From a virus, in the IMG/VR virus record IMGVR_UViG_3300046167_000232, positions 1-32,501 of that record: DNA of 32,501 bases. One strand, 5' to 3'. Positions 1 through 32,501 of the stretch are shown here, in pieces. A model generated the notes under the pieces. It saw only the letters and a program-made list of their open reading frames with translations, did not search any database and was not told the DNA's origin. How positions within the stretch are numbered: position 1 is the first letter of the stretch; the number at the start of each line of letters is the position of its first letter. A program made the translations under genes and the position numbers.

Positions 1-258
1 ACTAGCTAACATAGTACAGCCAGTTTTTAACCCCCTACCCCCTATGACAGCAATTCTACTCCTCTTTTACCTAGCCAAGATCTATCTGCACCTTGATGTC
101 ACCAGCTACCTGTACCTGTGACCTGTCTATCGGCTTGTACCCAGCCCGGTCCAGTAAATCCTTGCTCGCCTCTAGCTGAACGTACTCTGACTTAGCGCCC
201 ATGGCTAGCCTTCTCACCGTCCCAGCAGCTAGGGTAGCACTCAACCCGAACTCCTCGT
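1..258. repeat. Left copy of 258-bp terminal direct repeat
   Basis: Bases 1-258 are repeated at 32244-32501 with a single difference (C at 167, T at 32410). The difference falls in the third position of an alanine codon of the small terminase gene and is silent. A repeat of this size at both ends fits the direct terminal repeats of T7-like phages. It also fits the end overlap of a circular or circularly permuted assembly. It carries the 3' two thirds of the small terminase gene on the minus strand. Confidence 0.9.
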
Positions 259-452
259 TCATCCTCTGCATCAGATACTGCTGCACATGTGGTAGCTTCA
301 TCGTCTTGGTTGCAGTTACTCTTCCAGACTCACCAGCTACTATACCCAGCCAACTCTGCTGCCTTAGCTATCGTACACCCGTTTGCTACAATGGTGTCAA
401 CTAACGCTGTCTGTTTCGTAGTCAGCTTTCTTGTAATCGGAACATTACTCAT
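71..452 (-). CDS. terS: Terminase small subunit (TerS), interrupted by a +1 frameshift
   Basis: This is the DNA-recognition subunit of the packaging motor and the partner of TerL at 29054-30575. The first part (452-330, 40 residues) has the TerS helix-turn-helix start: LTTKQTALVDTIV, then AKAAELAGYSS. The second part (331-71) continues with ESGRVTATKTMKLPHVQQYL, the expected continuation, but in the +1 frame, because a TGA follows TGG at 332-330. Removing one base near 330-335, for example one G of the GGT on the minus strand, restores a 126-residue protein, a normal TerS length. The ATG at 301 would give only the C-terminal 76 residues and is probably not the true start. The gene is transcribed toward the left physical end, and its 3' part is copied in the right-end repeat. 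Confidence 0.75.
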
Positions 453-483: not shown

Positions 484-506
484 CCCCCCTCTCCCTCTCT
501 CCCCCC
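484..506 (-). other. G-rich polypurine tract upstream of TerS
   Basis: On the minus strand the tract has G runs of 6, 3 and 6 separated only by A/G bases. It lies about 30 bases upstream of the TerS start codon. G runs of this kind can form a quadruplex in DNA or in the TerS leader RNA, and the pure purine/pyrimidine asymmetry could also allow a triplex. The role is unknown, and homopolymer lengths here may be imprecise. Confidence 0.4.
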
Positions 507-539
507 AACAGGCACTATTTGGTCGGGCTATGTCAATAT

Positions 540-554
540 GTGACGTAGCGTCAC
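540..554. promoter_or_regulatory. Palindrome GTGACG-TAG-CGTCAC (operator-like site 1)
   Basis: The 6-bp arms are perfect and flank a 3-base centre. The core TGACG-N3-CGTCA recurs exactly at 4000-4012, 4659-4671 and 5634-5646. This copy lies in the divergent control region, about 90 bp from the TerS start and 350 bp from the first rightward gene, where a regulator site would be expected. As RNA it would be a 6-bp stem with a triloop. The binding protein is unknown. Confidence 0.55.
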
Positions 555-3701: not shown

Positions 3702-4172
3702 ATGCTCATCTATGGAATCGACCCCGGATTTACAGGAGCTGTCAGCATATATGACACAGAACTAGACAGCTTAATCATTCACGATATTCCTGTAGTTAAA
3801 TCCCCAAAGGGTAAGACGCTTATCAACTTGCCTGAGTTACTTTCAATCTTAAACAACACAGAAAATCAACCATCCCTCGCAGCCATTGAGCTTGTAAATG
3901 CCATGCCTAATCAAGGTGTTAGCAGTACATTCAGGTTTGGTCAGGGCTTTGGTCAACTGCAAATGGGGATCGTGGCATCAAAGCTACCCATAGAATATGT
4001 GACGCCACGTCAGTGGAAGAAATACTTTGACCTTACGAGAGACAAAGGTGAGAGTAGAAGACTAGCGAAGCTCTGCTTCCCTAACCACGCACACTATTTC
4101 AAACGAGTCAAAGATGATGGCCGAGCAGAAGCCGCACTCATTGGATTGTATGCAAAAGAAAACTTAATCTAA
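3702..4172 (+). CDS. RuvC-like Holliday junction resolvase
   Basis: This 156-residue protein has the RNase H-fold features of RuvC: GIDPGFTGAVSIYD with D7 in the first strand, AAIELVN with E63 in the third strand, the TFRFGQGFGQLQMG loop, and a C-terminal KDDGRAEAALIG with D138/D139 and E143 as candidate last acidic ligands. It would cut four-way or branched DNA, which fits the neighbouring exonuclease and annealing protein and the need to resolve concatemers before packaging. A good AAGGAG site precedes the start. A perfect copy of the TGACG-N3-CGTCA palindrome lies inside the gene (4000-4012). Confidence 0.85.
   Translation: MLIYGIDPGFTGAVSIYDTELDSLIIHDIPVVKSPKGKTLINLPELLSILNNTENQPSLAAIELVNAMPNQGVSSTFRFGQGFGQLQMGIVASKLPIEYVTPRQWKKYFDLTRDKGESRRLAKLCFPNHAHYFKRVKDDGRAEAALIGLYAKENLI
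3999..4013. promoter_or_regulatory. TGACG-CCA-CGTCA palindrome (site 2), inside the resolvase gene
   Basis: The 13-bp core at 4000-4012 is a perfect copy of the motif. The outer base pair (G...G) is not symmetric here. Its position in a coding region argues against a simple promoter operator and leaves open a role in replication, recombination or mRNA structure. Confidence 0.45.
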
Positions 4173-4733: not shown

Positions 4734-5525
4734 ATGGAACGCAAAGGTTTCATAGGTGGTTCCGACTGCGTAAAGATAATGCAGGGGAACTGGCTAGAGT
4801 TATGGCAGATCAAGACAGGTCGAGTTGAGCCTGAAGATTTGTCTCGCAATCTTGCAGTGCAGATGGGCATACAGACTGAAGAGTTTAATTTGCTTTGGTT
4901 TGCCAATGAGTATGACTGCACTCTTACTGACTTCCAGAAAACATTCGAAGAAAAGATTGGATCAGTACCAGTTAAGGGTACGGTTGACGCTATGGTCGGG
5001 GATTCTATTGAGGACTCTATCGTAGAAGCCAAGCACACCAACTCATACAATACTTTGGATAAAGTAATTGAGTATTACATGCCGCAAGTGCAGCTATACA
5101 TTCATCTAGCAAAAGCTGAAGGCGCTCATATGTCTGTTATCTTTGGCAATAATAAGTGGGAGTCAGCTCATGTCAGACGCAACGAAGAGTATTTCAATTC
5201 TATGTGGGCAGTGGTGTCAGACTTCTGGGGTTACGTTCTTCGCGATGAAGAGCCAGTTGGTAATGACCAGCCGATACAACTTAGCATTGACAAGGTGTCG
5301 GTGGACAACATGGTCAAGCGTGACGCCACGCAAGACAACCAATTCAATGACGCAGCCTACACTTACGTTACTCTAGAAGCAGATGCCAAAGCGTTTGAGT
5401 CAGCCAAAAAACAAATCAAAGAAATGGTTGGTGACAATGAGCGTGAAGTTTACTGCGATCACTTAACTGCAAAGCGCGACAAGCGTGGAGCAATTCGTAT
5501 TACAAGGAGAACAACCAATGACTGA
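4734..5525 (+). CDS. YqaJ-type (lambda exonuclease-like) viral recombinase nuclease
   Basis: This 263-residue protein has the PD-(D/E)xK nuclease layout of the YqaJ family. GGSDCVKIMQG is near the start, followed by a helix with MGIQTEEFNLLWF (E49/E50), then GTVDAMV with D85, then IVEAKHT with E98 and K100 as the catalytic E-x-K. The following segment YMPQVQLYIHLAK carries the usual glutamine helix. Such enzymes resect double-strand ends 5' to 3' and hand the single strand to an annealing protein, here the ERF gene that overlaps by 8 bases. The AAGGAGAACAAC site is strong. A palindrome and a stem-loop lie just upstream. Confidence 0.88.
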   Translation: MERKGFIGGSDCVKIMQGNWLELWQIKTGRVEPEDLSRNLAVQMGIQTEEFNLLWFANEYDCTLTDFQKTFEEKIGSVPVKGTVDAMVGDSIEDSIVEAKHTNSYNTLDKVIEYYMPQVQLYIHLAKAEGAHMSVIFGNNKWESAHVRRNEEYFNSMWAVVSDFWGYVLRDEEPVGNDQPIQLSIDKVSVDNMVKRDATQDNQFNDAAYTYVTLEADAKAFESAKKQIKEMVGDNEREVYCDHLTAKRDKRGAIRITRRTTND

Positions 5526-5959
5526 TACAGCAATCAAGGCGCTGCTCAAAGCGCAGCAAGCAATGGAGTCTGTAAAGAAAGACAGCCTCAACCCACACTT
5601 CAAGAACCGCTACGCCTCACTCGAAGCAGTGATTGACGCTACGTCAAAGGTGTTCCAAGAGAATGGGTTCGTTGTCATGCAGCCGTGTGGCCGTGACGAG
5701 CTTGGCATGTATGTCGAGACAAAGATACTTCACACCTCAGGAGAGGCGTTCTCAAGCAGGGTTTACCTTGTCTTGAGTAAGCAGGACATGCAGGGCTTAG
5801 GCAGCGCCATAACGTACGCTAGGCGCTACGGGACTACTAGGCATGGCTTGCCTTGCACCAGAGGATGATGACGGGAACATGGCAGCTAAACAATCCAGCG
5901 GTGTTCAAGTGACCAAAGGTCTATCATCAGAGAATCCATCTGCATCAGGCGGGTGGTAA
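5518..5959 (+). CDS. ERF family single-strand annealing protein, with a +1 frameshift
   Basis: The N-terminal part is typical ERF: SVKKDSLNPHFKNRYASLEA, then QDMQGLGSAITYARRYG. As written the frame leaves the family at the GGG of 5830-5832 and stops at 5868. Removing one G restores LLGMACLAPEDDDGN, the conserved ERF continuation, and runs to the TAA at 5957-5959, giving 146 residues. ERF proteins anneal complementary single strands and, paired with a YqaJ exonuclease, form a two-component recombination system. The start is ATG 5518 behind AAGGAGAACAACC, overlapping the exonuclease stop by 8 bases. A perfect palindrome copy lies inside (5634-5646). Confidence 0.85.
5633..5647. promoter_or_regulatory. 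Palindrome TTGACG-CTA-CGTCAA (site 4), inside the ERF gene
   Basis: A perfect 15-bp palindrome. Its 13-bp core is the exact reverse complement of the core of site 1 at 540-554 (centre CTA versus TAG). It lies in the early coding part of the ERF gene. Confidence 0.45.
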
Positions 5960-9765: not shown

Positions 9766-11334
9766 TTAAGCGTTTTCTAGGGCAGTGATCCGTGCCTCTA
9801 GTTCTTTTATTGTAGCGACCAAGAGTGGCACTAGCTTGCTTTGGTCAATGCCTTGGTATTCTGGATTACCGTCTGCATCGACTGCATCTTTTGTGCCTGT
9901 AATTGCCTCTGGTACAATGTCTTGAACTTCGTGAGCCAAGAAGCCATCAACAGTTGTGTCTGCGTCTGCAATGAAGTTGAAGCGTGATGGATTGAGTTGC
10001 TTGAGGCGATCTGTTGCGCCTGTCAACTCAACTACGTTTTCTTTTAGGCGATAGTCTGAGGAAGTGTTGTAGGATGTGGCACTGCCGTTTACTACTATCC
10101 CACCAATCTGACCATTTGGATTAAAAAACTCTGCAAGACCTTGGTTGCCCGTGGAAGCTGTGCCTAACTTGAGAATAACCCTACCGTTTGTGTTTGGATC
10201 AAACGCTGCGCCACCTGTGCTACTTGATGGAACTGCTGTGCCACCCGAGAATATTACATTAGCAGAACTGTCAATATACAATCTAGGATTACCATCCCCA
10301 TCCGACAGCACGATGTTGTTGCTTGAGGTGCGGATGTCCAAGCCGCCTTGGTTGCCTGTGAAGCGGCCTAAGATGGTGTTCTTGGAGCCAGTGGACATAG
10401 AAACGCCACTTGAAGCACCTATAAATGTATTTAGATTTCCAGTTGTGCCGTAACCTGCCGTATATCCAAGATACACGTTGCCATCAGATGTTGTTCCACT
10501 ATACCCCGCCTGATACCCCACCGCCGTGTTGTTGTTGGCGGTGGTGTTGGAGTAGAGAGCAGTTGAGCCATAAGCAGTGTTATAAGAACCTGTGTTGCTG
10601 TATAAAGCAGCCTCTCCAAACGCACTATTGTGAATGCCAGCAGTGTTACTATAACCTGCGCCTCTTCCTAAATAGTTATTCCAATTGCCAGTACTATTAC
10701 TATACCCAGCCTGATAACCAACAGCCGTGTTGTTAGAGGCGGTGGTGTTGGAGTATAGTGCAGATGCGCCAAACGAGGTGTTAAAGGAGCCTGTTGTGTT
10801 GCTAACAAGGCTTTCTTTTCCAAGCGCTGAATTTGACGCTCCCGTGGTCGTGTTATATCCAGCAGCATAACCAAAACCAGTATTTTCATTTGGTGTGGTT
10901 TGTGAGTAAAATGCCCTCCACCCGCCAGCAGTTAGTTGTGTACCAGTAGTATTACTATAACCAGCTTGATACCCAACGGCTGTGTTGTTGCTTGCGGTGG
11001 TGTTGGATTCAAGTGCAGAACGACCAATAGCTGTATTATAAGACCCTGACGTTGTACTACGCATAGTAGACCGACCAACTGACACATTGCTTGCGCCTGT
11101 CGTATTATTCTCTAATGAAAAATAACCAAGCCCAGTATTGTCACTCGCTGTATTTGCGGTCAAAGCGTTATTGCCAATTGCTGTATTTGCGTTTCCAGAA
11201 ACATTACTATCTAGAGCAGTATTACCCAACGCCACGTTGCCTGTACCAACAGGATAATTCCCGTCCAGCTTGATCGTGCCGCCATCGACTGATAGCGTCT
11301 TAGTGCTGTCTGCAATATCTCTTGCTCGTGTCAT
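9766..11334 (-). CDS. Tail fibre/spike with YadA-head-like repeats and S74 self-cleaving chaperone
   Basis: The protein has 522 residues. The N-terminus (MTRARDIADSTKTLSVDGGT) is a short attachment-type segment. The middle (about residues 30-320) is built of repeats such as NNTAVGYQAGYSN and SALYSNTT, which resemble the trimeric left-handed beta-roll of YadA-like head domains. A beta-rich stretch follows. The last 100 residues form a peptidase S74 chaperone: SDYRLKEN gives the Ser426/Lys431 pair expected for autocleavage, then GFLAHEVQDIVPEA and a C-terminal coiled coil. The chaperone would trimerise and then release the fibre. This is a likely receptor-binding protein. Confidence 0.85.
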   Translation of the reverse strand: MTRARDIADSTKTLSVDGGTIKLDGNYPVGTGNVALGNTALDSNVSGNANTAIGNNALTANTASDNTGLGYFSLENNTTGASNVSVGRSTMRSTTSGSYNTAIGRSALESNTTASNNTAVGYQAGYSNTTGTQLTAGGWRAFYSQTTPNENTGFGYAAGYNTTTGASNSALGKESLVSNTTGSFNTSFGASALYSNTTASNNTAVGYQAGYSNSTGNWNNYLGRGAGYSNTAGIHNSAFGEAALYSNTGSYNTAYGSTALYSNTTANNNTAVGYQAGYSGTTSDGNVYLGYTAGYGTTGNLNTFIGASSGVSMSTGSKNTILGRFTGNQGGLDIRTSSNNIVLSDGDGNPRLYIDSSANVIFSGGTAVPSSSTGGAAFDPNTNGRVILKLGTASTGNQGLAEFFNPNGQIGGIVVNGSATSYNTSSDYRLKENVVELTGATDRLKQLNPSRFNFIADADTTVDGFLAHEVQDIVPEAITGTKDAVDADGNPEYQGIDQSKLVPLLVATIKELEARITALENA

Positions 11335-14441: not shown

Positions 14442-14456
14442 ATCAACGCACAATTA
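14442..14456 (-). repeat. 15-bp element at a stop codon, copy 1
   Basis: TAATTGTGCGTTGAT (minus strand) begins with the TAA of the ejection-protein gene. The identical 15 bases begin with the TAA of the large terminase gene at 29042-29056. The function is unknown. Confidence 0.5.
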
Positions 14457-17400
14457 GTATCTACCGAAACCAGATGGACCATCATCAAGCTCAGTTTCTA
14501 GCATTCGCGTGTATTTATTAACGATATCATTCCACATCCACAGGTTAGAGAATGGCAGGGCGCGTATAAACTCTTTGCTTCCCTCTCCGACATTTCCGGT
14601 CAGCATATTAGCCATACCATTTGCATACTCCATGCCGATAGATGGGCCAGCACCAAGCAAGCCTGTAATAGCATCTGATGTACTAGGCTCCTGGGGGTAT
14701 CTAGGTTGCATAAAGCGCCACCAGTAATGTTTGGCCCACCTAAGAGCAAGACTTGTACTCATTGCAGTATAGAAAAGATCTGAGTGGAGCGCAGCGACAC
14801 CCGAGAAATCAAAGGCTCTAGCAAATTTATCTTGCGGAGAAAGCTCTACAAAGTCAGGAGTCTTTAATTCTAGAGTCATATACCCAAGACCCATAGCAAT
14901 GGCTGTTCCAAGGAAACGATTCTTTAATTGACCATGACCGTAAGCTGCGAGTGTTTTGTTTGTTGCCGCCAATGCGTAGCTATAGAACTGAAAGGGCAAA
15001 CCAAGCAAACCATTCTCTACTCTAGCGTAACCTGTGTACTTACTGTCTTCTTTCATGCCAAATTTTCTAGCAACGTGCATAGGAATGTAAGCTACACCAT
15101 CGGTAATAATCGGCTTATCAGCTGGTGTACCCATTAAGATTGTATTGGCTATGCCAGAGCTAAGAGCATTACGAAAAGATTGAACAGTCTCAGGAGAAAC
15201 TCTAGCTTGCTTTTCTATCTCGGCTACTGCCATATCGTTTATAGCGTTTTCGTAAGCAGCTTCATGGCCCTTTTTTCTTTTATCATACTTTTTAATCTTA
15301 ACTTTGCGAGTAACTTTTTCAAACTCAACACTGTCTTCGTAGATGACTTTTTTTTCTGGCTTGCCATCTCTAATAATCGTAGTTTCAGATTTAATTTTCT
15401 TTTTAGGAACAGAAACAACTTCATCAACAAAAAGATCTAAATCATTTGCCTTGTTAATTGAGTGCATGATTTCGTGCATCTTAATGAAGGTAACGTAATC
15501 GTCTGGCGTATTTATGATTCCCGGCTTAATTGGGTTTACGCCCTTTAATCTAGGATTTTCCCAACCACGATCTTGCCACATTACATCACGAATATAGTCT
15601 TCATCTATGCGTACTGTATTAGTATCACCATTGTAAAATGCTGGCTTATATCTTCCGCTTTTAGTGAAGGATTCAGTCGGACCGGTTACAATGTCAGCAG
15701 TAGTAGAAGGAAACTCAATTGTATTTGTCCAAGCCTCGGTGTTGGCCATATACATTCCTGCCTCAGACTTTTGCCAAGGCGCATTAGCAATCTTACCCGC
15801 TGTATCTAGGTCAATGCCATAACGAAGCAAATACTCTTGCTCCATCTTAGAGGCTTTGCCTTGAGTCCAGCGCACAGAGTAGTCAATGATAGTATGGCTA
15901 CGCATCATGCCATCAAAGTCTTTAAAGATACGAGTGATAGGCGCCAAACCATTGAGCGCGTAGAAAGCATTCTTGCTCTTGTCCATAAAGTTAGAGCGCA
16001 ATGGGTTGTTACCCATATCATCAACAAGCCGTAGATGAGAGGAGCCCATCAATATCTCTAGTGCTTCACCAGCAATCCTAGCTTCTTTGGCCCCCATTTT
16101 TAACTGAGAGTCGCTCAGTACACTAAACAAGCCTTTCATAGTCTTGCCTATACCATGCTCCATCATAATCTTAGCGGGCTCAGTAATTGTAGATACACCA
16201 GCAGCACCAAGATAACCAAGCTGCGCTGCGCTTCGTAACACCTCAGCAGCCCTTTGATTCATAGTGTCTGGCTCACGAACAACAGTACCAGCAACTCGAT
16301 CATACATATGACGTATATCTTTAGCAGCAGCATTAGCTTGATCTACAGTCATGCCAGACTGAATCATCTCAGACATCTTATCGTCAATTACATCATCAAT
16401 TTCTTGACCATCAAACTTTACTGAAAACTCATACTTAGCAGCAGTTCGCGCAGTGTATGCCTTCATAATAGAGACAGGATTGCGGTGCATGTAATCAAGG
16501 ACAAGCTTGTTAGGTATATCAATCCCACGATGCTTTAAGTGCTTAGACTTGCCGTATCCAAAGCTAGCAACGTCTAAATCGGTTACATCTCGCAAGCCAA
16601 GAATAGAGTCCACTGCATCTGACGCACGTTTTGCAATTGCACCTTCATCGGTAGAAAATGTTGTCTTAACGTACTTGCCCATATTGTTTCTGCCGTAGCC
16701 ATCTGGGTTTTGCCGAAACCAATCTGCCAAAATCTTTTCTAATCCAGAACGATCTTTTGCAATAGCGTCTTTGTCCCAATATCTAGGACGAAATATCTCT
16801 TCATTTGCAGGGGATGTAGGACCAGCAGCATCTATCTCTTCGAGTGTAGACTTGTGCTGTTTGATTACATCTGAGTTTTTATCAACGATACCCTTTAAGC
16901 GAGTGTACTCAGGCGTTCCACGATAACGCTCAATGCTAGAGTTAATGTTATCTATTTTCTTTTGACGTGCATCTATATCACGAATGTAGAAACCCTTATT
17001 GCCAATTAACCCCCTTTCGCTCAAGCGAGATTCCCACTTGCTGTAGAAGTTATTGATCTGATCCATAGCCTTAGCTTCAAAATCGTCTGCTGGCTTCTGA
17101 CCGCGCATTGCTTTTGAGTCAACGCTAGTTAACCACTCCTCAAAGTCAGAGCGTTTATACATGTAATCCAATGGCTTAACCACACCAGAACCTTGAGACT
17201 CACCCCAGATTGATACCATCTCATCGTAGGCTTGTACCCATTCGCCATCTCTTAGTTTTGCATTCTGGAAGACTGAGTTCTTAATTGCAAAACCCTGCTT
17301 GTTTGCTGCTAGCAAAATGCCAGCATCATTAGCAATATCAAGCATAGTTAGCTTAACTGAGTTGGGAACTGCTTTATCTTGGAGGACACGCTTCATTGGC

Positions 17401-18104
17401 GTTGTTACTGACTTAAACAACCATGAGTCAGTAAATGCGCTTGTTGCAATAGAGGGGTCTATCTCTACACCCTCAAGCGGCTCAATTGCTTGGCGTAAAT
17501 TTTCAATCTCAACTTCTGTTCTTTGTATTGCACTTGCCCTACGCGCTGCGGGTACAGATAGAGCTCCACCTAGAGCAGTACCTAAAACAAAAGCAGACCC
17601 AACATTGATTGCTGTTTCTGCTGTTGTTGCCAACGGATCAATGGGTGCTCGAATGGCCTCTTGAGCAGCGACAACACCGCCTGTCTGTAATCCAGATCGA
17701 AGAGCCGTTGCGCCTAGAGTAGTAAACCGCAGTGGGACAGCGATAAAGTTTACTGGATCAAATATTTCAGCAGCAAAGCTGGCTCCAAGACCAGAGCGAC
17801 TAAGAGTATCTCTAGTTTTAAGACCCTCTCTAAGACTATTAACTCTAAAATCCATATGCTCTTGATTGTTAGCTTGCATAAGATACGAGCCATATCCCTT
17901 TAAATCGTCTGGGATATTTTCTCTTGGATTGTAACCTTCATCACTAATACCCGGCTTACCAAATCTAGATGTTTCTGTAGCGAAGTCTAGTATTGGGTTA
18001 TATTTGTAAGCTAAAGAAGCCCCAACAGTTTCCATAAAACTTGGAGCTGAAACGGTTTCCCTTCCTACCTGTATATTCGGAGCGTATCTTAATCCTCTTT
18101 TCAT
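14454..18104 (-). CDS. Large internal virion (DNA ejection) protein with HExxH metallopeptidase motif
   Basis: This protein has about 1216 residues from ATG 18104; a start ten residues upstream at 18134 is also possible. Its length and place between the 1019-residue protein and the fibre gene match T7 gp16-type ejection proteins. There are hydrophobic Ala/Gly-rich segments near residues 150-190 and in the last quarter. HEIMH at residues 877-881 is an HExxH zinc-protease signature in a segment read as KMHEIMHSINKA. It is followed by a very basic stretch (KKKIKSETT, KVKIKKYDKRKK) and then GHEAAYENAINDMAVAEIEK, whose acidic residues could give the third ligand. A peptidase in an ejected protein could open the wall or process a host target. 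No lysozyme-type domain is seen. Confidence 0.75.
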   Translation of the reverse strand: MKRGLRYAPNIQVGRETVSAPSFMETVGASLAYKYNPILDFATETSRFGKPGISDEGYNPRENIPDDLKGYGSYLMQANNQEHMDFRVNSLREGLKTRDTLSRSGLGASFAAEIFDPVNFIAVPLRFTTLGATALRSGLQTGGVVAAQEAIRAPIDPLATTAETAINVGSAFVLGTALGGALSVPAARRASAIQRTEVEIENLRQAIEPLEGVEIDPSIATSAFTDSWLFKSVTTPMKRVLQDKAVPNSVKLTMLDIANDAGILLAANKQGFAIKNSVFQNAKLRDGEWVQAYDEMVSIWGESQGSGVVKPLDYMYKRSDFEEWLTSVDSKAMRGQKPADDFEAKAMDQINNFYSKWESRLSERGLIGNKGFYIRDIDARQKKIDNINSSIERYRGTPEYTRLKGIVDKNSDVIKQHKSTLEEIDAAGPTSPANEEIFRPRYWDKDAIAKDRSGLEKILADWFRQNPDGYGRNNMGKYVKTTFSTDEGAIAKRASDAVDSILGLRDVTDLDVASFGYGKSKHLKHRGIDIPNKLVLDYMHRNPVSIMKAYTARTAAKYEFSVKFDGQEIDDVIDDKMSEMIQSGMTVDQANAAAKDIRHMYDRVAGTVVREPDTMNQRAAEVLRSAAQLGYLGAAGVSTITEPAKIMMEHGIGKTMKGLFSVLSDSQLKMGAKEARIAGEALEILMGSSHLRLVDDMGNNPLRSNFMDKSKNAFYALNGLAPITRIFKDFDGMMRSHTIIDYSVRWTQGKASKMEQEYLLRYGIDLDTAGKIANAPWQKSEAGMYMANTEAWTNTIEFPSTTADIVTGPTESFTKSGRYKPAFYNGDTNTVRIDEDYIRDVMWQDRGWENPRLKGVNPIKPGIINTPDDYVTFIKMHEIMHSINKANDLDLFVDEVVSVPKKKIKSETTIIRDGKPEKKVIYEDSVEFEKVTRKVKIKKYDKRKKGHEAAYENAINDMAVAEIEKQARVSPETVQSFRNALSSGIANTILMGTPADKPIITDGVAYIPMHVARKFGMKEDSKYTGYARVENGLLGLPFQFYSYALAATNKTLAAYGHGQLKNRFLGTAIAMGLGYMTLELKTPDFVELSPQDKFARAFDFSGVAALHSDLFYTAMSTSLALRWAKHYWWRFMQPRYPQEPSTSDAITGLLGAGPSIGMEYANGMANMLTGNVGEGSKEFIRALPFSNLWMWNDIVNKYTRMLETELDDGPSGFGRY

Positions 18105-18105
18105 T

Positions 18106-21100
18106 CTAGTATCCCAACATACGGAAAAGTTCATTTGCTTGCGTTACTGGTTGCTGAAATCTCATAGCTTCTCTTTGCTTTCTTTTTTCTGCTACCAACT
18201 CTTGTCTATCAAGCTCTACTTCTTCTGCTGTACTTTTGTTAATTAAGGCTTGGGCGTCATAATCAGCTAGCTCGCTTTCATCCCACATAGGAATGTCTAG
18301 CTGGCCGTCAATTTCCATTATTAAAGGACGCAACTCATTGTTATCATCTACAAAATATGCGTAGTAGGATGGGCCAACTGTTGCCTCATTAGGTACAAGG
18401 TAAACATCTTTTGGCTTAGGCTGATCGCCTACCGCCCTTGCTGTTACACCTGACACTATTTCAAGGTCTAAATCTCCTTCCATTGCAATACCTGCTGGAA
18501 CTTCAATTGTGCTAGGAGTGCGCGTTGCATAGTTTCTAAGCCTGTATCCATCAGGCAACTCAGAAACAATTATATCTATAAAAGCATCGCGTCTTGCTTC
18601 ATTAGGAAACATTTTTTCAAGGCTGCGAGAGGTAAGTGACAGCTCGCCAACTGGAAACTTTGGGTCTTGGACAACTCTTGTCTTGTGGTAATATGTGTTA
18701 AAGATTTCGTCTATTCTTGTTATTACATCTTCTTTAGTCCCGCCCATTCTCGCAAGGCTTTCAGCTGTACTCGAAAGCTCTACTGCTACTAAGTCTCCAT
18801 ATTTTTCAGTTAAATACTGTGAAGGGCTTTGCTTCCCAAAAACTCTTTTAACATTTATATCAGATTTAGGATCATCCATTCTGGCCCTTAAAGCCATAGC
18901 AATCTCTCTAGCGTCACCGTCTTTTGTTGTGCTTCTAATTTCCATAACAGTTTTTAGGAAAGCAGTTTTCTCTGCGCTTATAGGAGCGCCCTCTCCTAAA
19001 CCAAGTCTGTTTACAAATAAACCAGTTGACGTAAGGTCATTTGACAAGACCGAAAACAAGTCAAGAAGAGCGTCGGCACCGGGAGTTTCAAGCCCTAAAG
19101 ATATATTGGTTAGCCCATCAATTAGTTCTTGGGATGCAGTTTCTCTTAACGCTTGCAGTAAATCAGCGCGTCTTTCCTCCGTCGCGTATGTAGACGGATC
19201 GGTTAAAACAAAACCCTGAGAAGATAGAATTTCATTTTGTAATACTCTATCTTTTTTATCTGTTACTTTACCGCCGCCTGCTCGGATTCTGTTTGTGTTA
19301 TCAATTTCTTCTTGAGCTTGTAAAATCTCTGCTTCTTTGCGGCTAACCTTTTCTCTAACAGAGTTGATATGATTAACTACAGAGCTTCGTTTGTCTTCAG
19401 GAACAGTTCCAAGTATTAGATTACCAGCCTTTGCTACAGCAACGCTTGTACCAAGAATTTCTTGACCACCGCTACTAACATAGTTTGCAAGAGCGTTCAT
19501 ATCAAACGAGCTCATATTTGCGGAAACAATGTTGGCAATACCTTTGCCAGCAGCAGAGCGCAGACCACCAGATAAGGAATCGTACTCGTTTGCGGTAATA
19601 TCACCACTTGCAAGCGCAGCTGCGGCAAGAGCCTCTGCTTCAGCAACAGCCTCTGAATCGTAAACTCCGTTTAGGAACCTAGTCGATTCATTTGAAACTT
19701 GAGTAAAGAGGTTTGCATTTCTTATCTCTCGATCAATTCTATCCTGAACTTCATTTTGAGTGCCGCTTAATAATGTACCTACATAATTACGATCTTCAGC
19801 TGGATCATAAAGCATAGAGCCTTGAAGCGTAATTAACGCAGCTTGTTGCAATGTGCTTAATCTAGCAATGTCTTGAGGATCGCCAGTAACTAATGCTTTC
19901 TTCAAGGCATCAATGTTGCCATCACTTGCCATGCCGATAATAGCTGCATCAAGACCAGCCCGTCTTGAGTCTTGCCTTAAAGCGTTTGACGCTTCAACGC
20001 CAAGACCCTTCTGCTGTGCAACACTAATTTCTTGTAGGCTTCTTTGATAGGCATCATTCGCAGCGTTGATTGAGCCAATAACAAAAGTTTGCTCACCAGA
20101 AGCCCAAGCATTTCTTGAGATTTTTGTAGCATTAGCTCGACTTGGCATAATGTCAGTCGCATTATAATTGCGACCAAACTCTAATGCTTGCTGTTTATAT
20201 ATCGCCGCCTGCTCACTAGCTTTTGCAGCAGTGATTGCGTTCAAGTTAGAAGATATAACGCCAGCTTCAGAAAGAATGGCTCTGGTGTTGTTTCTATCAA
20301 CATATCCGATAAACGGCTCAAGCGCTTCTCTTTGCGCTTGTGACATATCATCCGCTCCAATTAAGCCCTGACTGCCAATGTAGGCTTGCATAGCGGCTTG
20401 CTGCACTGGAGTAGAATTCTGCATAGCTACTTGGAGAGCCCCAGACATAGCCTGTGCGCCCAGAGTAGATTTTACTGTTGTCGAGTACCCCGGTTTGTAA
20501 AGCTCTGCCTTCTCGGCCTCTACAGAGGCTGTGATGCGCTCTTCTATCATTACAACAGAAGCCTCAAGCTGGCCTGACGCTGCTGTGTCATAGATTACTT
20601 CAGAGAATTCATCGTTAGTTGTAGCTACGTTTTGTGCAGCAGCCGCTCTGCTTTTAGCTCTAGCCGCATCGGCAAGCTTAATTTTAGTAGACCCCATGAC
20701 ATAAGAACCAGAGTCCATAATAACATTCTTAAAGCGGTCATCAGCGCCCTTAGCCATAGAGCCAAGATAAGACTCAAACATGTTTTGATACTGAACAGGG
20801 TCTTCATACTTAGAAGCAAGCTCGGCGGATTTTAGTCGGATGTCCTTATCAACAGAGTCAACGAAGCGGCGCTCAACCACTTGCTCAAATGCAGAAGCAG
20901 CAATGCTACCCATGCCCTCCATGCTAGACAGCACTTCTGGCTTACCAGTTGCTGAGTCAAAAACCTTTAAATCTTCTGTTTGAATAGACTGAGCCGCTTC
21001 TGTTCCAAACTTTTCGGCGTTTACTTGAGCGCGTTGATAAAACTCTTGCCCAGCTTTGTCGGCAAAGTTTGATATAGCGCGGCCAACATTCTGTTCACCA

Positions 21101-21165
21101 GTGTCAAAGCTGCGAACACCAATGGGCTGAGTAAATATTTTCCGTGTTTCGCGTATTACTGGCAT
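18106..21165 (-). CDS. Internal virion protein (gp15-like)
   Basis: This 1019-residue, largely helical, Ala/Ser/Glu-rich soluble protein has no catalytic motif I recognise. It starts PVIRETRKIFTQPIGVRSFD. Size, helical content and position (after the gp14-like gene, before the gp16-like gene) match the second core/ejection protein of T7-like phages, which forms part of the periplasm-spanning ejection tube. The identification is by synteny; sequence identity to T7 gp15 is not apparent by eye. Its stop is one base before the next gene's ATG, so the three ejection proteins are probably made together. Confidence 0.7.
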   Translation of the reverse strand: MPVIRETRKIFTQPIGVRSFDTGEQNVGRAISNFADKAGQEFYQRAQVNAEKFGTEAAQSIQTEDLKVFDSATGKPEVLSSMEGMGSIAASAFEQVVERRFVDSVDKDIRLKSAELASKYEDPVQYQNMFESYLGSMAKGADDRFKNVIMDSGSYVMGSTKIKLADAARAKSRAAAAQNVATTNDEFSEVIYDTAASGQLEASVVMIEERITASVEAEKAELYKPGYSTTVKSTLGAQAMSGALQVAMQNSTPVQQAAMQAYIGSQGLIGADDMSQAQREALEPFIGYVDRNNTRAILSEAGVISSNLNAITAAKASEQAAIYKQQALEFGRNYNATDIMPSRANATKISRNAWASGEQTFVIGSINAANDAYQRSLQEISVAQQKGLGVEASNALRQDSRRAGLDAAIIGMASDGNIDALKKALVTGDPQDIARLSTLQQAALITLQGSMLYDPAEDRNYVGTLLSGTQNEVQDRIDREIRNANLFTQVSNESTRFLNGVYDSEAVAEAEALAAAALASGDITANEYDSLSGGLRSAAGKGIANIVSANMSSFDMNALANYVSSGGQEILGTSVAVAKAGNLILGTVPEDKRSSVVNHINSVREKVSRKEAEILQAQEEIDNTNRIRAGGGKVTDKKDRVLQNEILSSQGFVLTDPSTYATEERRADLLQALRETASQELIDGLTNISLGLETPGADALLDLFSVLSNDLTSTGLFVNRLGLGEGAPISAEKTAFLKTVMEIRSTTKDGDAREIAMALRARMDDPKSDINVKRVFGKQSPSQYLTEKYGDLVAVELSSTAESLARMGGTKEDVITRIDEIFNTYYHKTRVVQDPKFPVGELSLTSRSLEKMFPNEARRDAFIDIIVSELPDGYRLRNYATRTPSTIEVPAGIAMEGDLDLEIVSGVTARAVGDQPKPKDVYLVPNEATVGPSYYAYFVDDNNELRPLIMEIDGQLDIPMWDESELADYDAQALINKSTAEEVELDRQELVAEKRKQREAMRFQQPVTQANELFRMLGY

Positions 21166-21175
21166 AGGTTACACC

Positions 21176-21652
21176 TTAATCTTTTGTTGGCGTGTAAGTT
21201 TTTGGCACATAGGTTTTAGAAAGATCAGCCCCAAGCTCAAAGAGCCGAGACAAATTATTTATTCTAGCAACAGATTTTGCACTAACACCACGCTGACGTT
21301 CAATCATTGCAGCAACACTTCTGCTAGAACCTTCTATTGCAGCAAGTCTTTGACTAGAGGCCACATCAGATGACATAGTTTCTCTTTGAAACCTTTCAAA
21401 GGCTGCAAGACTAGAGCTTTCACCGCCACCCAACTGAAAAGAGAACTGAGCATTGTTTGATGATCTTGCTAAGTTGTATTCAGAAATCCGTAGGTTTTGG
21501 GCCTCAAGGGCTTGGGCCTCCGCTAGCTTACGGTCAATCTCCATTTGACGTGCTTGCTGTTCAGCCCGAAGAGCTTCAGCATTAGCGGCTTTGTTTGATC
21601 CCATAAATCCAAGGAAGGTAGAAGCAGCTGTTAGGGCAAGAGGTATGCTCAT
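21176..21652 (-). CDS. Internal virion protein (gp14-like)
   Basis: The 158 residues have an N-terminal small-residue hydrophobic segment (LALTAASTFLGFMG), then a long charged coiled coil (AEQQARQMEIDRKLAEAQAL) and a Ser-rich region. This is the usual design of gp14-type proteins, which form the outer-membrane pore of the ejection apparatus. It overlaps the tail tube B stop (TAATG) and is followed by the two large ejection proteins. Confidence 0.7.
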   Translation of the reverse strand: MSIPLALTAASTFLGFMGSNKAANAEALRAEQQARQMEIDRKLAEAQALEAQNLRISEYNLARSSNNAQFSFQLGGGESSSLAAFERFQRETMSSDVASSQRLAAIEGSSRSVAAMIERQRGVSAKSVARINNLSRLFELGADLSKTYVPKTYTPTKD

Positions 21653-23889
21653 TAGAATGTTAACTCCGCTACTATGCCATTAACTTGCAATGCAAGCGGG
21701 GCAGATTGTGTAACTGTAATCTGTGGGTCTCTAGTGTAGCCCATTAGACGGAACTCTTTCTTACCAGTGAACGAGTTAACTTGTAATGAAAGATCGTCAG
21801 TCACGTTTCTTAGAACTAGGTTTGCGCCATTTACTGTAGCAGACAGGGTATTGTTAAGGTCAATTACTACGCTGCCTATACGACGAGGTGAACCAGTAAC
21901 CGGACCAGAACCAGTAGCAATATCTAAAGGATTTGTTATTAAAGTTACATCAAACTTTAACCCAATTTCAGCTTGAGTTAAGTTTGGATCAATAGCAGAC
22001 ACATCTATTTCTCCATTAGCAACAGTAAACTCACCAACATAGTTATTGCCGTCTACAACATTGAGCACTGCACCGTTTTCATAAAAATCAGATACATCGA
22101 AAACCCCAGCAGCCCCATTGTAAACACTGGAAACGTCAGTGTTATATCCCTCATCAAACTCACATATAGCAAACACTTCGACATTATCGCCCTGATCGTA
22201 TATCACGCTAGCAAATACACGATCGTCAATGGTCACAGTAGAATTAAAAAAGCCTTGAGTTGTAAACTCTGTCCACCCTGCACGCTCTTCCGCTCGGTTA
22301 GAGTTAAAAACTGAAATTGTTCCATTATAGTTTGTAACAAACACATAGCTTTCTGAACGACTCATAGCTCCATACATTGTGTTCATTTCAATTGGAGTTT
22401 TTATTAAATGAGAAGAAATAAGAGATATTGGATTTGCAACGTAAGCAGCCTCGCTGTCAGCAAATAGATACTCTCTTACAATTGCTCCACCTTTTTGAAC
22501 AAACAAGGTAGCGCCATCTAGTGCTTGAGGTCGAACAAAGTCACAGCCAAATGGAGTTTGCCTACGCACAATAATGTTTGTTGGCGTAATTGGCTGGTTG
22601 CTGAACGCTGGAACATACATTTCAGAAGTTGCTGTAAAGACTTGCAGGTCACGATTAGAAACCAAGTGACGAATCTGGTTAATTTCACCAACGCTTGCAG
22701 TAACGTGAATAGCTTCATCATCCTTTGCAGTACCAACATCAAAGTTATAATACTGCCCATTTCGGCTAAACCACATTGAATCCGGTTGAGATAATGTTCC
22801 CGCAAAAACTAAACGGTTTTGATGGAATGTAACTGCTCCCGGGAATCCTCGAAGAACAGAATATGATTGCTCTTCCCAAGACGTTGTTGGAGCTTTTGTT
22901 GTAATCTTTGGTGTGCCGCCGCCAATATCAGAGGCATTGGCATTAGCACCTGCTGTTATAACAAACTTATCATCATCTACAATTTCAGCAACGGTTCGAG
23001 CACCATTAATTTGATTATTACTAATTCCACCAACGCTACCTGCATGTGAAACCGTAACTGAATCATTAATAGATAAGCCATGCTTAACCATAGTTACTTC
23101 AATGTCAGCTTGGCCTTCTGTCGTGCTAAAAGCATTTATTCCTAACCTAACAGTTAGAGAATCAAAGATATTACCTGTAGCTTGAGTTGTGCTTTGTACT
23201 GACGTTATTTCTATTTCTGCCCCATGGTAACGAAGAGTGATCCCATCATGGTCTCCGTTTGTAGCAAAATATGGATCAGATGTAGTTAAGGTGACGCCAT
23301 TACCCTGCGTTGCTGAAACTTCTAGCGTAGTCCCTTGGCGATGAAAGTTGTAATAAGGTTGATATATTTTAGTTAAATCAGATCGAGCATCAAAAACAAA
23401 AGGCTCTACTTGAAAAGAACTAAGATCTGTACGGACAATTTGTTGAGGAATAAATGTAGGGTGACAGATGAACATAACATCACCAGCTTGAGCAAATGTA
23501 TACTCATGCAAAAAAGTGTCAGTAAATTTTAAAGGGTTACCGTTTATGTCTTGAGTTATTGTTGCAATAATATTTAGCACGCCAGTTATCGGATCAATAA
23601 AGAAGAACTTTATTTTTTCATGCTCAAGAGAAACAACATAACGCTCATCGTCTGAGAATATAAAAGGTAATAGACGTGACTGCTGGGTTTTAGTCGAGTC
23701 TATTACGATGTCATTTCTATAAACGGCTCTAAGTCCAGCCCTTTTAATTACCCCACCCTCTGCTCGAAGAAAGAAGTTTTCAATGCGCTGCGCTGATCCC
23801 GTGTAAACCGCAGAGTCGGTGCGGGAGTACAAAGAAGGGCTAACCTCTCCGTAAGAGAAGTTTGTTACTGGAACCCGTACCTTCTGCAT
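21652..23889 (-). CDS. Tail tubular protein B (nozzle, gp12-like)
   Basis: This 745-residue, beta-rich protein starts VPVTNFSYGEVSPSLYSRTD, a classic nozzle-protein beginning. It has FFLRAEGGVIKRAGLRAVYR and, in the middle, HQNRLVFAGTLSQPDSMWFS with QIRHLVSNRDLQVFTATSEM, all typical of tail tubular protein B. It forms the tail nozzle below the gp11-like adaptor, whose gene adjoins it with shared boundary bases at 23889. Size is normal for the family. Confidence 0.9.
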   Translation of the reverse strand: MQKVRVPVTNFSYGEVSPSLYSRTDSAVYTGSAQRIENFFLRAEGGVIKRAGLRAVYRNDIVIDSTKTQQSRLLPFIFSDDERYVVSLEHEKIKFFFIDPITGVLNIIATITQDINGNPLKFTDTFLHEYTFAQAGDVMFICHPTFIPQQIVRTDLSSFQVEPFVFDARSDLTKIYQPYYNFHRQGTTLEVSATQGNGVTLTTSDPYFATNGDHDGITLRYHGAEIEITSVQSTTQATGNIFDSLTVRLGINAFSTTEGQADIEVTMVKHGLSINDSVTVSHAGSVGGISNNQINGARTVAEIVDDDKFVITAGANANASDIGGGTPKITTKAPTTSWEEQSYSVLRGFPGAVTFHQNRLVFAGTLSQPDSMWFSRNGQYYNFDVGTAKDDEAIHVTASVGEINQIRHLVSNRDLQVFTATSEMYVPAFSNQPITPTNIIVRRQTPFGCDFVRPQALDGATLFVQKGGAIVREYLFADSEAAYVANPISLISSHLIKTPIEMNTMYGAMSRSESYVFVTNYNGTISVFNSNRAEERAGWTEFTTQGFFNSTVTIDDRVFASVIYDQGDNVEVFAICEFDEGYNTDVSSVYNGAAGVFDVSDFYENGAVLNVVDGNNYVGEFTVANGEIDVSAIDPNLTQAEIGLKFDVTLITNPLDIATGSGPVTGSPRRIGSVVIDLNNTLSATVNGANLVLRNVTDDLSLQVNSFTGKKEFRLMGYTRDPQITVTQSAPLALQVNGIVAELTF

Positions 23890-24482
23890 TAACTGCGCCT
23901 TTCAGCAATAAACCTTGATGTTGATAGCTTACGCGTTGTCTGCTGCTGTGAGTCTAGTGTCCGCGCCCGCATCATTGTTAGTTGAGCCTGCTGGCCCATG
24001 AGTTGTGCTAAACTAGCATCTTGCGCCAGAGAGGAAGCAAACACAGAGGCTAACTCAAACTGAACCGCTACTACAAAATATGATGGCCAGTCTTGTTCGC
24101 TTGCTCTGAATGTATAATCGAGGACTACCTCTGAGGTGTCACTCGTATCGCAGAATATCTTGTCGCCATAAGTCTGATATTCAATGTTAAAGTCATCAAC
24201 AGTAACAGCGTGAAGCATTAAAGAATCTGAAGGTATCTGATATGCGGCAGTATATCTACCAGTAGGCGAATTAGATAAACGGTTAAGAACTGATTGGTTT
24301 GTAGCGAAACGCCAACGGCAGTTTACTAATGCAGAACGAGCTATGTCTTCATACATATTAGCTGCAACTAACGCCTCGCTTGTTCCATCCTCAAAAGAAG
24401 TAATAGGCTCTGCACCAATTAAGATGAGAGCGCGACTAGATACGTCAATTGGGGTGTTAGCCGAGGTACTTAGGACAGCCAT
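23889..24482 (-). CDS. Tail tubular protein A (adaptor, gp11-like)
   Basis: This 197-residue protein has the usual gatekeeper/adaptor start SRALILIGAEPITSFEDGTS, then ARSALVNCRWRFATNQSVLN and a C-terminal helical half. It sits between portal and nozzle in the assembled tail. The gene lies just behind a terminator-like hairpin that follows the capsid gene. A GGAGG ribosome binding site lies between hairpin and start. Confidence 0.9.
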   Translation of the reverse strand: MAVLSTSANTPIDVSSRALILIGAEPITSFEDGTSEALVAANMYEDIARSALVNCRWRFATNQSVLNRLSNSPTGRYTAAYQIPSDSLMLHAVTVDDFNIEYQTYGDKIFCDTSDTSEVVLDYTFRASEQDWPSYFVVAVQFELASVFASSLAQDASLAQLMGQQAQLTMMRARTLDSQQQTTRKLSTSRFIAERRS

Positions 24483-24497
24483 GTAAATCCTCCAAAC

Positions 24498-24526
24498 GGA
24501 AAGAGAGGGGGAAGTTTCCTCCCCCC
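24498..24526 (-). terminator. Terminator-like hairpin behind the capsid gene
   Basis: On the minus strand GGGGGAGG pairs with CTTCCCCC (one G-U pair) around an AAA loop and is followed by the pyrimidine tract TCTCTTTCC. The tail is not a pure T-run, so it may be a leaky terminator or an mRNA-stabilising hairpin. T7 also places a leaky terminator right after its capsid gene, which lowers expression of tail genes relative to capsid. Confidence 0.6.
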
Positions 24527-24533
24527 AATCAAC

Positions 24534-25343: not shown

Positions 25344-25427
25344 TTGAACAGTCCTTGTTAAAGTTTATCGGGTTTGCATCTTGGGTATCCGCTCAACATC
25401 CTCAACGAAGGTATCCTTTCGGGCTTC

Positions 25428-25952
25428 TCAGTGCATTACGGGCCTTGATAATTTATCTGAAACATCTTTTTCCATCGGATTGCAACGCACAAACTCAATA
25501 TATTTAGAATTATAGTGCTCAGATATTCCAACAGGCTCGAAGCCAAGAGATGCTGCCCAGTTAAGCATTAAGGGAAAATCAGACAGTATAGACATACAAA
25601 GACGAGGATGTGTTTGATCGAATAGTCCCATTATCATGCGCGATCCAATTATAAGAAGACGCAAGTTTTTCTTTATTTCATTCGTAAACATACAGAAGAA
25701 CTGCGGTAATTCTATTGTAACATCAAAGGCTAACCCTGTTACGCATAGTATTGGACCGCCATCACTCTTAACAACATACGACTCAGAAATCTGCATCATC
25801 TCCAATAACGCTTCTTTGGGCGTATCATAGCCAAGGCTTCTAATATCATGAAGACCTTCTGGTGGAAGGTTCGAGCAAATCTCTTCTATATGGCTGTATT
25901 GCAATGGGGTAAGATAAAACTTACCCCGCTGCATAATTTTTATATCATCCAT
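25428..25952 (-). CDS. gp13-like internal virion protein (acetyltransferase-fold, DUF2833-like)
   Basis: From ATG 25952 this has about 174 residues. It reads like a GNAT-type fold: YVVKSDGGPILCVTGLAFDV, then TNEIKKNLRLLIIGSRMIMG, then MLNWAASLGFEPVGISEHYN, the usual late strands of the fold. T7 gp13 and relatives (DUF2833) have this fold but lie elsewhere in T7; here the gene lies between scaffold and capsid. Catalytic activity is not evident. The frame is open 15 codons further upstream, but that part overlaps the scaffold gene. With ATG 25952 the overlap is 8 bases. Confidence 0.65.
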   Translation of the reverse strand: MDDIKIMQRGKFYLTPLQYSHIEEICSNLPPEGLHDIRSLGYDTPKEALLEMMQISESYVVKSDGGPILCVTGLAFDVTIELPQFFCMFTNEIKKNLRLLIIGSRMIMGLFDQTHPRLCMSILSDFPLMLNWAASLGFEPVGISEHYNSKYIEFVRCNPMEKDVSDKLSRPVMH

Positions 25953-26923: not shown

Positions 26924-26947
26924 GTGAACCTTTGCTTTTTCCAAGCG

Positions 26948-29041: not shown

Positions 29042-29056
29042 ATCAACGCACAATTA
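29042..29056 (-). repeat. 15-bp element at a stop codon, copy 2
   Basis: The same TAATTGTGCGTTGAT as at 14442-14456, again starting with the TAA stop, here of the large terminase gene. The bases after the element differ between the two copies. Confidence 0.5.
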
Positions 29057-30575
29057 CATCCTAGACCAAAGACCTTGCCTACGCTGCGGCCTTTTCTTTG
29101 CAAATACATCAAAAGAACGGCCAGCAACGGTTGGTTGCGCTGGCTTCTGGCTATTCATCAACGCTCTACCTTCACCAGCGCCTAGCATCATGTACTGTAG
29201 AGCATCGTGAATGTGCGAATACATATTCTTATCGGGCTTATCAGCGTATCTTTCGCCAGAAACTTCCATGCGTTTATACTGATAGCCGCCCTCGAAGCCT
29301 TTAATTAGCTGCTGACATCTGGGGTCTATCAAGAACGCTGCTTTACCATCGCTCATTTTCTGTAGCTGGGACGCAACAGATTCAAGGCGCAAGTCAACTG
29401 AGTTAGAAGGGGCTGGGAACGCTCGTAGACCAGCACCTCGAAGTATATGGAACGGGGTGGCCTCGTCCGTTTGAGCGCGAAAGTCACCAGCAGGGTCGCC
29501 GTAGATAAATACTTCTGAGCATTCCGAAAAGCGTGTAGAAAGTTCTTCACGAAGCACCTCTGCAAAACGCACAATACCCATATCAAAGGCCACAAGCTCT
29601 GCTTGTATTAGCCATCTACCTCGAACCTTCTGTCCAATTGTAGCGGCTGGAGTAAGCCCAAAGTCCAAGCCCACATATACTGGTAATCCCGCTGCAATCG
29701 GAACTTCTTCTTTAGCAACGTGCATATCTCTGGCAAACATCTGGTAAATAGGCTTACCATCTTGGATAGAGCCCAGCTTGTTCATTACATAGACATCTAT
29801 CCAACTCTTAGTCTTACCACGAATAAGGTTAGAATAGTAATCTTTACGCATATACTTTGCGTTTTCTGCAACTTTGCTAGGCTTGTAATCATCAACCTCG
29901 CCATCGTCATCATAAACTTCAACCATTCCAGCGGGTTGCGTGTAGAACGACCAATTGTCTGGCTTCACCAGCATTCTTGCTTGCTCGCGCGGTATGTGAT
30001 CTGGGACGGGAACCTCACCTGACATGATCGGCCACCAGTGATCTTCCTCTGGCGCGTTGGTGTCGGCAATTACGCCCGTCCATGTAGCGCCGCCATCACG
30101 CATAGAAGGAAAACGCCCAACCCTCATGGTGCAAGCATCAATAATTGACTTGGGAACTTCCCTTGCCTCGTTAATCCAGATGCCAGTAAGCTCTAGAGAC
30201 AGAAGTTTCTTAACATCTTCGGGTCGATCAAGAGCTAAGAAGATAACCTCAAGCTCTAGGTCGCCCTTTTTAATGTTGTGGGTGTATGGAACCTGACCAT
30301 GTGAACCTACCCCAATCAGATTCAGGGAACCAATCAAGCCAAGTCTTAATGGTTGTGGTCTTTAGCTGCGGGTTTGTGTTCCGAATGATTGCCCATCGGC
30401 TACGGCGCAATCCATTCTTGTTGGGCTCTTGCGCTAGTGCGCGGCGGAATATCTCAACACAGCAAGAAACAGACTTACCAGAACCTACTGGACCTCTTAT
30501 GCCACGAAAGAAGGTGTTATCCTTCATAAACGCCTTAACCACTGCGCCATCTGGCTTGTACTTGAAGTCAGCCAT
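29054..30575 (-). CDS. terL: Terminase large subunit (TerL), interrupted by a +1 frameshift
   Basis: This is the packaging ATPase and nuclease. The first frame (30575-30270) has the Walker A segment GIRGPVGSGKSVSCC (residues 25-39) and RWAIIRNTNPQLKTTTIKTW, then leaves the family after TWS. The second (from about 30292 to 29054) resumes at VPYTHNIKKGDLE in the +1 frame. Dropping one G (the CC at 30292-30293 on the plus strand) gives 506 residues. The second part has GIWINEAREV (Walker B region) and the RNase H-like nuclease acids in VYVGLDFGLTP, IYGDPAGDF and HIHDALQYM. It starts 8 bases inside the previous gene. Confidence 0.9.
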
Positions 30576-31817: not shown

Positions 31818-31821
31818 TCTT

Positions 31822-32118
31822 CTATGCCTTCTTAGATTTGTTACGGGCACTAATGGACGCAGCCTTCTTCTTTGCATCAGCTTTGGACGAAGCGCCCCAT
31901 GCCTTTAAGCTGAGAAGAAGACGGGTGGGTTTGCCCTTGGCATCACGCTCAGGCCCCTTCATGCCGCCCATCCTAGCAAGAAACGAAGCCCGCCTAGGAT
32001 TGTCTCCGCTCTTAACCGGAGCCTTCAACGTACCCTTCTTATAAGAGGCACGCCCCTTGGCATTCAAGCCACCCTTCGGGTTCTTACCCTCTTTCCTTGT
32101 CCAAGCTGCTGTCTTCAT
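31822..32118 (-). CDS. Conserved basic phage protein (DUF6321-like)
   Basis: This 98-residue, very basic protein matches a widespread phage pattern: WTRKEGKNPKGGLNAKGRAS, then PVKSGDNPRRASFLARMGGM and LLLSLKAWGASSKADAKKKA. I believe this corresponds to DUF6321. It lacks any catalytic motif. It is the first leftward gene inside the right end of the molecule. After end-joining it follows TerS, so it is probably the second gene of the late operon. Confidence 0.75.
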   Translation of the reverse strand: MKTAAWTRKEGKNPKGGLNAKGRASYKKGTLKAPVKSGDNPRRASFLARMGGMKGPERDAKGKPTRLLLSLKAWGASSKADAKKKAASISARNKSKKA

Positions 32119-32162
32119 AATCGTACCCTATACCAGAAAAATATTTGCAGGAACCCTGTCCA

Positions 32163-32188
32163 ATGCTCCACATGCTCCACACGTCCAC
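32163..32188. repeat. Short tandem repeat near the right terminal repeat
   Basis: ATGCTCCAC occurs twice in tandem (32163-32171 and 32172-32180), followed by the related ACGTCCAC. It lies about 55 bp before the terminal repeat, upstream of the leftward small basic genes. It could be part of a packaging or cleavage signal or of a promoter region. Neither is proven. Confidence 0.4.
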
Positions 32189-32243
32189 AACAGCCAAGAG
32201 TATCCCTGCGAGCCTTTTTTAACTATCACTAGAGTGAGGGACC

Positions 32244-32501
32244 ACTAGCTAACATAGTACAGCCAGTTTTTAACCCCCTACCCCCTATGACAGCAATTCT
32301 ACTCCTCTTTTACCTAGCCAAGATCTATCTGCACCTTGATGTCACCAGCTACCTGTACCTGTGACCTGTCTATCGGCTTGTACCCAGCCCGGTCCAGTAA
32401 ATCCTTGCTTGCCTCTAGCTGAACGTACTCTGACTTAGCGCCCATGGCTAGCCTTCTCACCGTCCCAGCAGCTAGGGTAGCACTCAACCCGAACTCCTCG
32501 T
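32244..32501. repeat. Right copy of 258-bp terminal direct repeat
   Basis: Identical to bases 1-258 except T at 32410 (C at 167). The bases just outside, GAGGGACC before ACTAGC, are absent from the left end, so the repeat boundary here coincides with the start of the window. Confidence 0.9.
32314..32501 (-). CDS. terS: Terminase small subunit, partial copy in the right terminal repeat
   Basis: This is the C-terminal part of TerS, truncated at the window end, encoded by the second copy of the terminal repeat. The one base difference from the left copy leaves the protein unchanged (third base of an alanine codon). In a linear molecule this copy has no start. It becomes part of a whole gene only when ends are joined. 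Confidence 0.75.
   Translation of the reverse strand, partial: EEFGLSATLAAGTVRRLAMGAKSEYVQLEASKDLLDRAGYKPIDRSQVQVAGDIKVQIDLG

Follow-up and report, generated by a model that had tools for sequence, protein, structure and literature searches.

The packaged DNA of this phage most likely begins and ends inside its block of late genes. Taken as a whole, the observations are best explained by a direct terminal repeat at the ends, a cut just after terS and late transcription that crosses the joined ends, and we consider this combined explanation fairly probable.

The window (the whole analysed stretch of 32,501 bp) is a complete IMG/VR virus record of an uncultured marine phage. Its early genes lie on the plus strand from 904 to ~7127. 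The late genes lie on the minus strand, with terS (452-71) at the left end and the remainder running from the right end, 32118 down to ~7253. The following late genes frame the ends.

71..452, minus strand: terS, the first late gene, frame interrupted near 340 (gene calls, PHROG match, alignment).
29054..30575, minus strand: terminase large subunit (TerL), two overlapping frames, interrupted (gene calls, protein matches).
31822..32118, minus strand: DUF6321, the first late gene at the right end (gene calls and domain match).

The terS gene starts with ATG at 452 and has its stop at 71-73; the 71-301 part matches the PHROG terminase small subunit with E 5.5e-13. As read directly from the gene order, late genes of one strand flank the ends, terS on the left and all others on the right, which bears out the statement of the first-pass annotation that the late genes are divided by the genome ends. 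The same annotation had TerS reading off the left end; a transcript would do so, but the gene itself is whole, its stop being 70 bp inside.

Among named phages, nucleotide matches cover only a part of the tail-gene region and involve three Roseobacter phages (CRP-7, CRP-1, CRP-831); the similarity search gave none for window positions 14454-32501. By protein, the closest isolate is Pelagibacter phage EXVC031P Hodr (OQ414635), with identities of 63% for the head-tail connector, 61.5% for TerL and 49% for a part of TerS. The order terS, small genes, TerL, connector is the same in both phages. Unlike the window, the Hodr record was deposited as circular. A literature search found no paper combining Hodr with pelagiphage and none matching all late-operon terms together; the available part of the YA3 paper has no bearing on this case.

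The ends of the window carry two copies of one sequence.

1..258, no strand: left terminal-repeat copy; window position 1 is the probable left terminus (repeat; left end common to G024 and G025).
32244..32501, no strand: right terminal-repeat copy; contains the 3' part of terS but lacks the start of the gene (repeat; G024 ends at window 32481).

The copies form a direct repeat identical at 257 of 258 positions, the sole mismatch being C167 versus T32410. By itself the repeat is weak evidence, because relatives overlap at other places. Exact end overlaps elsewhere were observed in four short-read-type relatives (G009, 127 bp; G033, 77; G050, 127; G052, 61); among the compared relatives G061 (127), G047 (22) and G063 (128/129) also have overlaps, and most others have none. 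One record (G065, 34147 bp) differs from the other family members in having a long, imperfect overlap (312/320 over 320 bp) about 6 kb from TerS. Thus, end overlaps are frequent in this collection, are mostly of the k-mer kind and are located away from the window's ends, and the evidence for a true terminus is the shared position of the ends rather than the repeat alone.

These positions were observed directly. The record G024, a different strain with 84.5 mismatches per kb to the window, has its first base 1 bp left of window position 1 and its last base at window 32481, with an end repeat of its own (238/239) at the same place; G025 starts 6 bp left of window position 1. The left ends of G000, G024 and G025 hence fall within 6 bp, and a more distant relative from a third sample (L325/G056) terminates exactly 5' of the homologous GTCC. 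The repeat could be a mere assembly overlap, as the annotation had also allowed, the genome then being circular or permuted. The overlaps of other family members, including the imperfect one of 320 bp, speak for this reading. However, it would leave the shared end positions unexplained: G000, G024 and G025 have a common end, with a homologous one in L325, all at a conserved site, versus exact overlaps of 61-127 bp elsewhere in the relatives. We reject an assembly overlap as the whole explanation and consider it extremely improbable.

The conserved site consists of two elements.

32238..32251, minus strand: GGGACC/ACTAGCTA across the cut, on the late strand TAGCTAGT/GGTCCC, the slash marking the cut (17 close-clade records, alignment).
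31..42, minus strand, second copy at 32274-32285: G-rich block GGGGGTAGGGGG, candidate terminase recognition element (occurrence in relatives, spacing).

The cut falls at 32243/1; on the late strand of the window, 31 nt separate the G-rich block from the GTCCC that follows it. The sequence GGGACCACTAGCTA, spanning the cut, is present in exactly one copy in each of the 17 close-clade records (the window included), and in the alignment its flanks have diverged on both sides. Downstream of the terS stop and ahead of the following gene, the G-rich block was found in 66 of 76 relatives (0.7 in shuffles) and GTCCCY in 31 of them (2.1 in shuffles); this count took 76 of the 80 TerS loci, omitting L085, L086, L099 and L124, which end near or soon after the site. 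Measured from the end of the block, GTCY follows after 28-31 nt at 47 of 48 places (29 with 28 nt, three with 29, 11 with 30 and four with 31); the remaining one has 19 nt. Conserved non-coding sequence with rigid spacing beside terS is how a terminase recognition and cutting site is expected to look, and we infer that the site has this role.

A terminal repeat predicts that contigs end at the cut on one side only, because the sequence of the right end continues through the cut. Of the 27 contig ends scored in 1,030 nt, three fall within 8 nt of the predicted cut, with 0.40 expected from the remaining ends (Poisson P 0.008). The count included 90 contigs with the G-rich block and a known end on that side, the window itself being excluded. 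It drew on the TerS loci minus L099 and minus loci with at least 9,990 nt past TerS, and on 37 of the 73 loci of a further set, the others being duplicates or not reaching the contig end; for lack of a match to the block, 11 contigs were set aside. In the record of L099 (G038), a short stretch of the region is unread, and it was therefore not scored as an end. On the virion-gene side, 35 contigs were compared, and not one stops at the cut. The left end at window position 1 is, on this evidence, very likely a true terminus; the annotation's idea of a true terminal repeat is to this extent supported by the independent records G024, G025 and L325.

Cohesive ends at the cut, with the repeat being a product of ligation or assembly, would agree with the single precise cut position. 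They agree poorly with the repeats of similar length (258 and 238 bp) at that place in two strains and with the 0/35 contigs ending there from the virion side; the latter count is the reason why we do not favour cohesive ends, which we consider very unlikely.

A short direct terminal repeat is likely the best-fitting end type, with a right boundary (258 bp in the window, 238 bp in G024) that comes from two records only. The difference could reflect several right ends, as in N4, or a few bases lost in sequencing. The terminal repeat of T7 is 160 bp. Features in common with T7, P-SSP7 and N4 are the fixed left end, the shortness of the repeat and the circles in short-read assembly; unlike in these phages, the window shows no gene of the size of a phage RNA polymerase, and its late transcription unit is itself divided by the cut, beside terS. 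According to the PhageTerm paper, the shortest direct terminal repeats measure slightly more than a hundred bases, and the left end of N4 is accurate whereas its right end takes several positions; the 258/238 pair may suggest the same here. For P-SSP7, the first assembly gave a circle, and the phage later proved to have a 206-bp repeat, as stated in the P-SSP7 paper; given this precedent, circles from short reads are no objection to a terminal repeat.

The unequal right ends would also be expected from packaging of the pac-headful type in which the first cut is precise, at window position 1, right ends varying with head filling and the 258-bp repeat being headful redundancy. The late genes would then be split in the first-packaged genomes of a series and unsplit in those packaged afterwards. 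The PhageTerm paper describes cases in which the first cut is fixed and the second is distributed. Only 21 bp separate the total lengths (32,501 and 32,522), as against ~40 bp for the unique lengths; with repeats of 258 and ~239 bp, G024 is intermediate between the headful and the fixed-repeat predictions. However, both full-length records with ends in terS start at the cut, where a headful series would add permuted starts, and a redundancy of 0.8% with a spread of 20 bp would be unusually tight. Headful packaging hence seems unlikely to us, and the direct terminal repeat is retained below.

Three further records (L095, L128, L136) have their starts clustered within 10 nt, at the window-equivalent positions 299-308 inside terS. 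This cluster is possibly the right terminus in those strains; we do not claim it as such, as it comprises three ends and fits neither 258 nor 238.

Upstream of terS we observed a cassette of three elements.

541..553, no strand: palindrome TGACGTAGCGTCA, candidate operator (over-representation, upstream counts).
531..536, minus strand: TTGACA, candidate -35 of the late promoter (relatives; without a canonical -10).
484..506, minus strand: homopurine tract GGGGGGAGAGAGGGAGAGGGGGG, close to where the transcript is expected to start (single copy in the window; family-wide).

In the family, the cassette consists of the palindrome TGACGYNRCGTCA, 3-4 bp, TTGACA, ~25 bp and the homopurine tract. On the late strand of the window it reads TGACGCTACGTCA (553-541), 4 nt, TTGACA (536-531), 24 nt and the tract (506-484), followed by the terS ATG at 452. 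The palindrome occurs 5' of TerS in 48 of 57 relatives, as compared with 0.03 in shuffles. In 43 of these 48 loci we looked for TTGACA up to 12 nt after the palindrome, and in all 43 a match of at least 5/6 starts 3-4 nt after it (9% of random positions). The scan for TTGACA with the tract found at least 120 marine viral contigs. Among the 80 loci listed from it, TerS is located downstream in 74 and the other six end within 1-152 nt, so that the tract always precedes TerS where this could be assessed; in 41 of the 80, the palindrome in this form immediately precedes TTGACA. The cassette is one-sided: among 53 relatives the palindrome was found upstream of TerS in 44, in the TerS/repeat part in none and after the cut in none.

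The first-pass annotation had placed a single promoter near 450-600 to serve terS and the virion genes; the only family-conserved promoter-like cassette does lie there, at 484-553 on the TerS side, and judging from its conservation and position it would be the late promoter. The closest isolate, Hodr, likewise has a sigma-70-like site 5' of terS (TTGACA-17-TATACT, spacing read by eye), but its terS upstream stretch is without these palindromes. In the window, TTGACA is not accompanied by a canonical -10 at a spacing of 16-18 nt, a generic sigma-70 scan upstream of TerS gave no excess (17/53 relatives versus 21.2 in shuffles), and RNA folding of 440-530 gave no signal (z 0.18). The cassette may need an activator at the palindrome. 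The latter is enriched in the window, with 14 matches (both strands, one mismatch allowed) versus 0.77 expected, and is probably the binding site of a phage regulator. As it sits in the divergent intergenic region where the early genes also start, it may serve these genes.

The palindrome TGACGYNRCGTMA recurs in the early region, at 541, 1472, 4000, 4659 and 5634, partly inside coding sequence. The homopurine tract is nearly mirror-symmetric and almost invariant across the at least 120 marine viral contigs; it may act in the initial transcript, in pausing, as a triplex or G-quadruplex, or as an origin.

If the genes from 32118 own a promoter in 32119-32501, the ends would be as described and the split would be without consequence for expression. 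This rival view is compatible with the proposed termini, and the annotation had offered a form of it, with a promoter in the leader.

32119..32243, minus strand: leader, from the cut to the first virion-side late gene (scans, alignment).

The linear right end leaves 383 bp upstream of 32118, which is room enough for a promoter; phage promoters can deviate from the sigma-70 consensus, and an AT-rich stretch directly before 32118 is conserved in the relatives. However, positions 32151-32207, i.e. 57 of the 125 bp of the leader and nearly half of the stretch proposed as promoter, are missing in seven of the eight aligned relatives, being present in the window and G026, and we reject a promoter within them for this reason. 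The consensus scan detected no promoter-like site in 32119-32501 of the window, the generic sigma-70 scan after the cut found such sites in 4 of 53 relatives versus 12.2 in shuffles, and none of the 53 has the cassette palindrome beyond the cut. A promoter in 32119-32243 hence fares worse than the cassette, and an own promoter anywhere in 32119-32501 is doubtful in our view; the consensus scans and the missing cassette suggest that the virion side has no second promoter. A scan of 31000-32501 for terminator-like sites found none.

With the sole conserved promoter-like site and terS placed opposite the other virion genes, late expression probably waits for the joining of the ends. The proposed course of events would be as follows. 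The virion DNA would be a linear molecule whose left end is fixed at window position 1 and whose ends carry a short direct terminal repeat of roughly 240-300 bp. The terminase would cut the concatemer at the conserved site just 3' of terS, parting the late promoter region and terS (left) from the other late genes (right, 32118 to ~7250). After injection, the ends would be joined via the repeat by the YqaJ exonuclease and the ERF-type annealing protein, or by replication into concatemers, and a transcript from ~500-510 would then pass through terS, over the junction and into the packaging, head, tail and lysis genes. The crossing of the junction is predicted from the arrangement of genes and sites, and the gating of late expression by end joining appears to be a good inference from it.

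The late operon of lambda starts near one cohesive end and extends over the joined cos to the genes for terminase and head, and the dependence of late transcription on end joining is textbook there. The present phage is similar in having late genes of the same strand at both linear ends, with a promoter, here the candidate cassette upstream of TerS, at one of them. It differs in that the ends look like a terminal repeat (258 and 238 bp) rather than the cohesive ends of lambda, and in that only terS precedes the cut. Working in the manner of lambda without cohesive ends would make it a variant of a known arrangement.

Candidates for the joining are encoded in the early region.

3702..4172, plus strand: RuvC-like resolvase, weak match (0.013, below the cut-off; domain match).
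4734..5525, plus strand: YqaJ-type exonuclease (1.7e-10; domain match).
5485..5868, plus strand: ERF-type annealing protein (8.9e-18), frame interrupted near 5868 (gene calls, domain match).

Exonuclease, ERF and RuvC-like proteins had all been named in the annotation as a means of joining the ends; the first two are well matched, but the RuvC assignment falls below the cut-off. Overall, its interpretation is partly supported. In P22, an Erf-type protein joins redundant ends. The ERF-family protein and the exonuclease could do the same here, although the ends appear fixed, unlike the permuted ends of P22. More tentatively, the ends could serve as a topological switch: the operator-linked late promoter, its start marked by the homopurine tract, would make only TerS from the injected linear DNA, and the whole virion programme would follow from this one promoter after recombination of the repeat, so that end joining would order the packaging initiator and the virion genes in time.

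The metagenomic genomes of this phage group are mostly kept as circles or arbitrary fragments; a probable packaging site, termini and a late control region are now assigned for an abundant uncultured marine group. If late expression does depend on end joining, the phage's own recombination genes would help to time virion production, and the logic of lambda would be achieved via a terminal repeat in place of cohesive ends.

Several essential-looking genes of the window are interrupted by single-base frame changes: terS near 340, TerL at 30270-30337 and ERF near 5868. The break in terS is a 1-nt difference from the relatives; of 21 matching records, 19 have the gene as one open frame of 119-149 aa, and the other two matches are partial. 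Frame-shifting gaps amount to 0.92 per kb between the window and G002, and to 0 between G002 and G001. The frame breaks together with the intact terS of the relatives point to sequencing error in the record as the likely cause of the interruptions, perhaps from long reads.

The tail-fibre gene contains internal repeats of ~117 bp at 10487-11059, and the same region matches the Roseobacter phages CRP-7, CRP-1 and CRP-831, hinting at an exchange of host or receptor.
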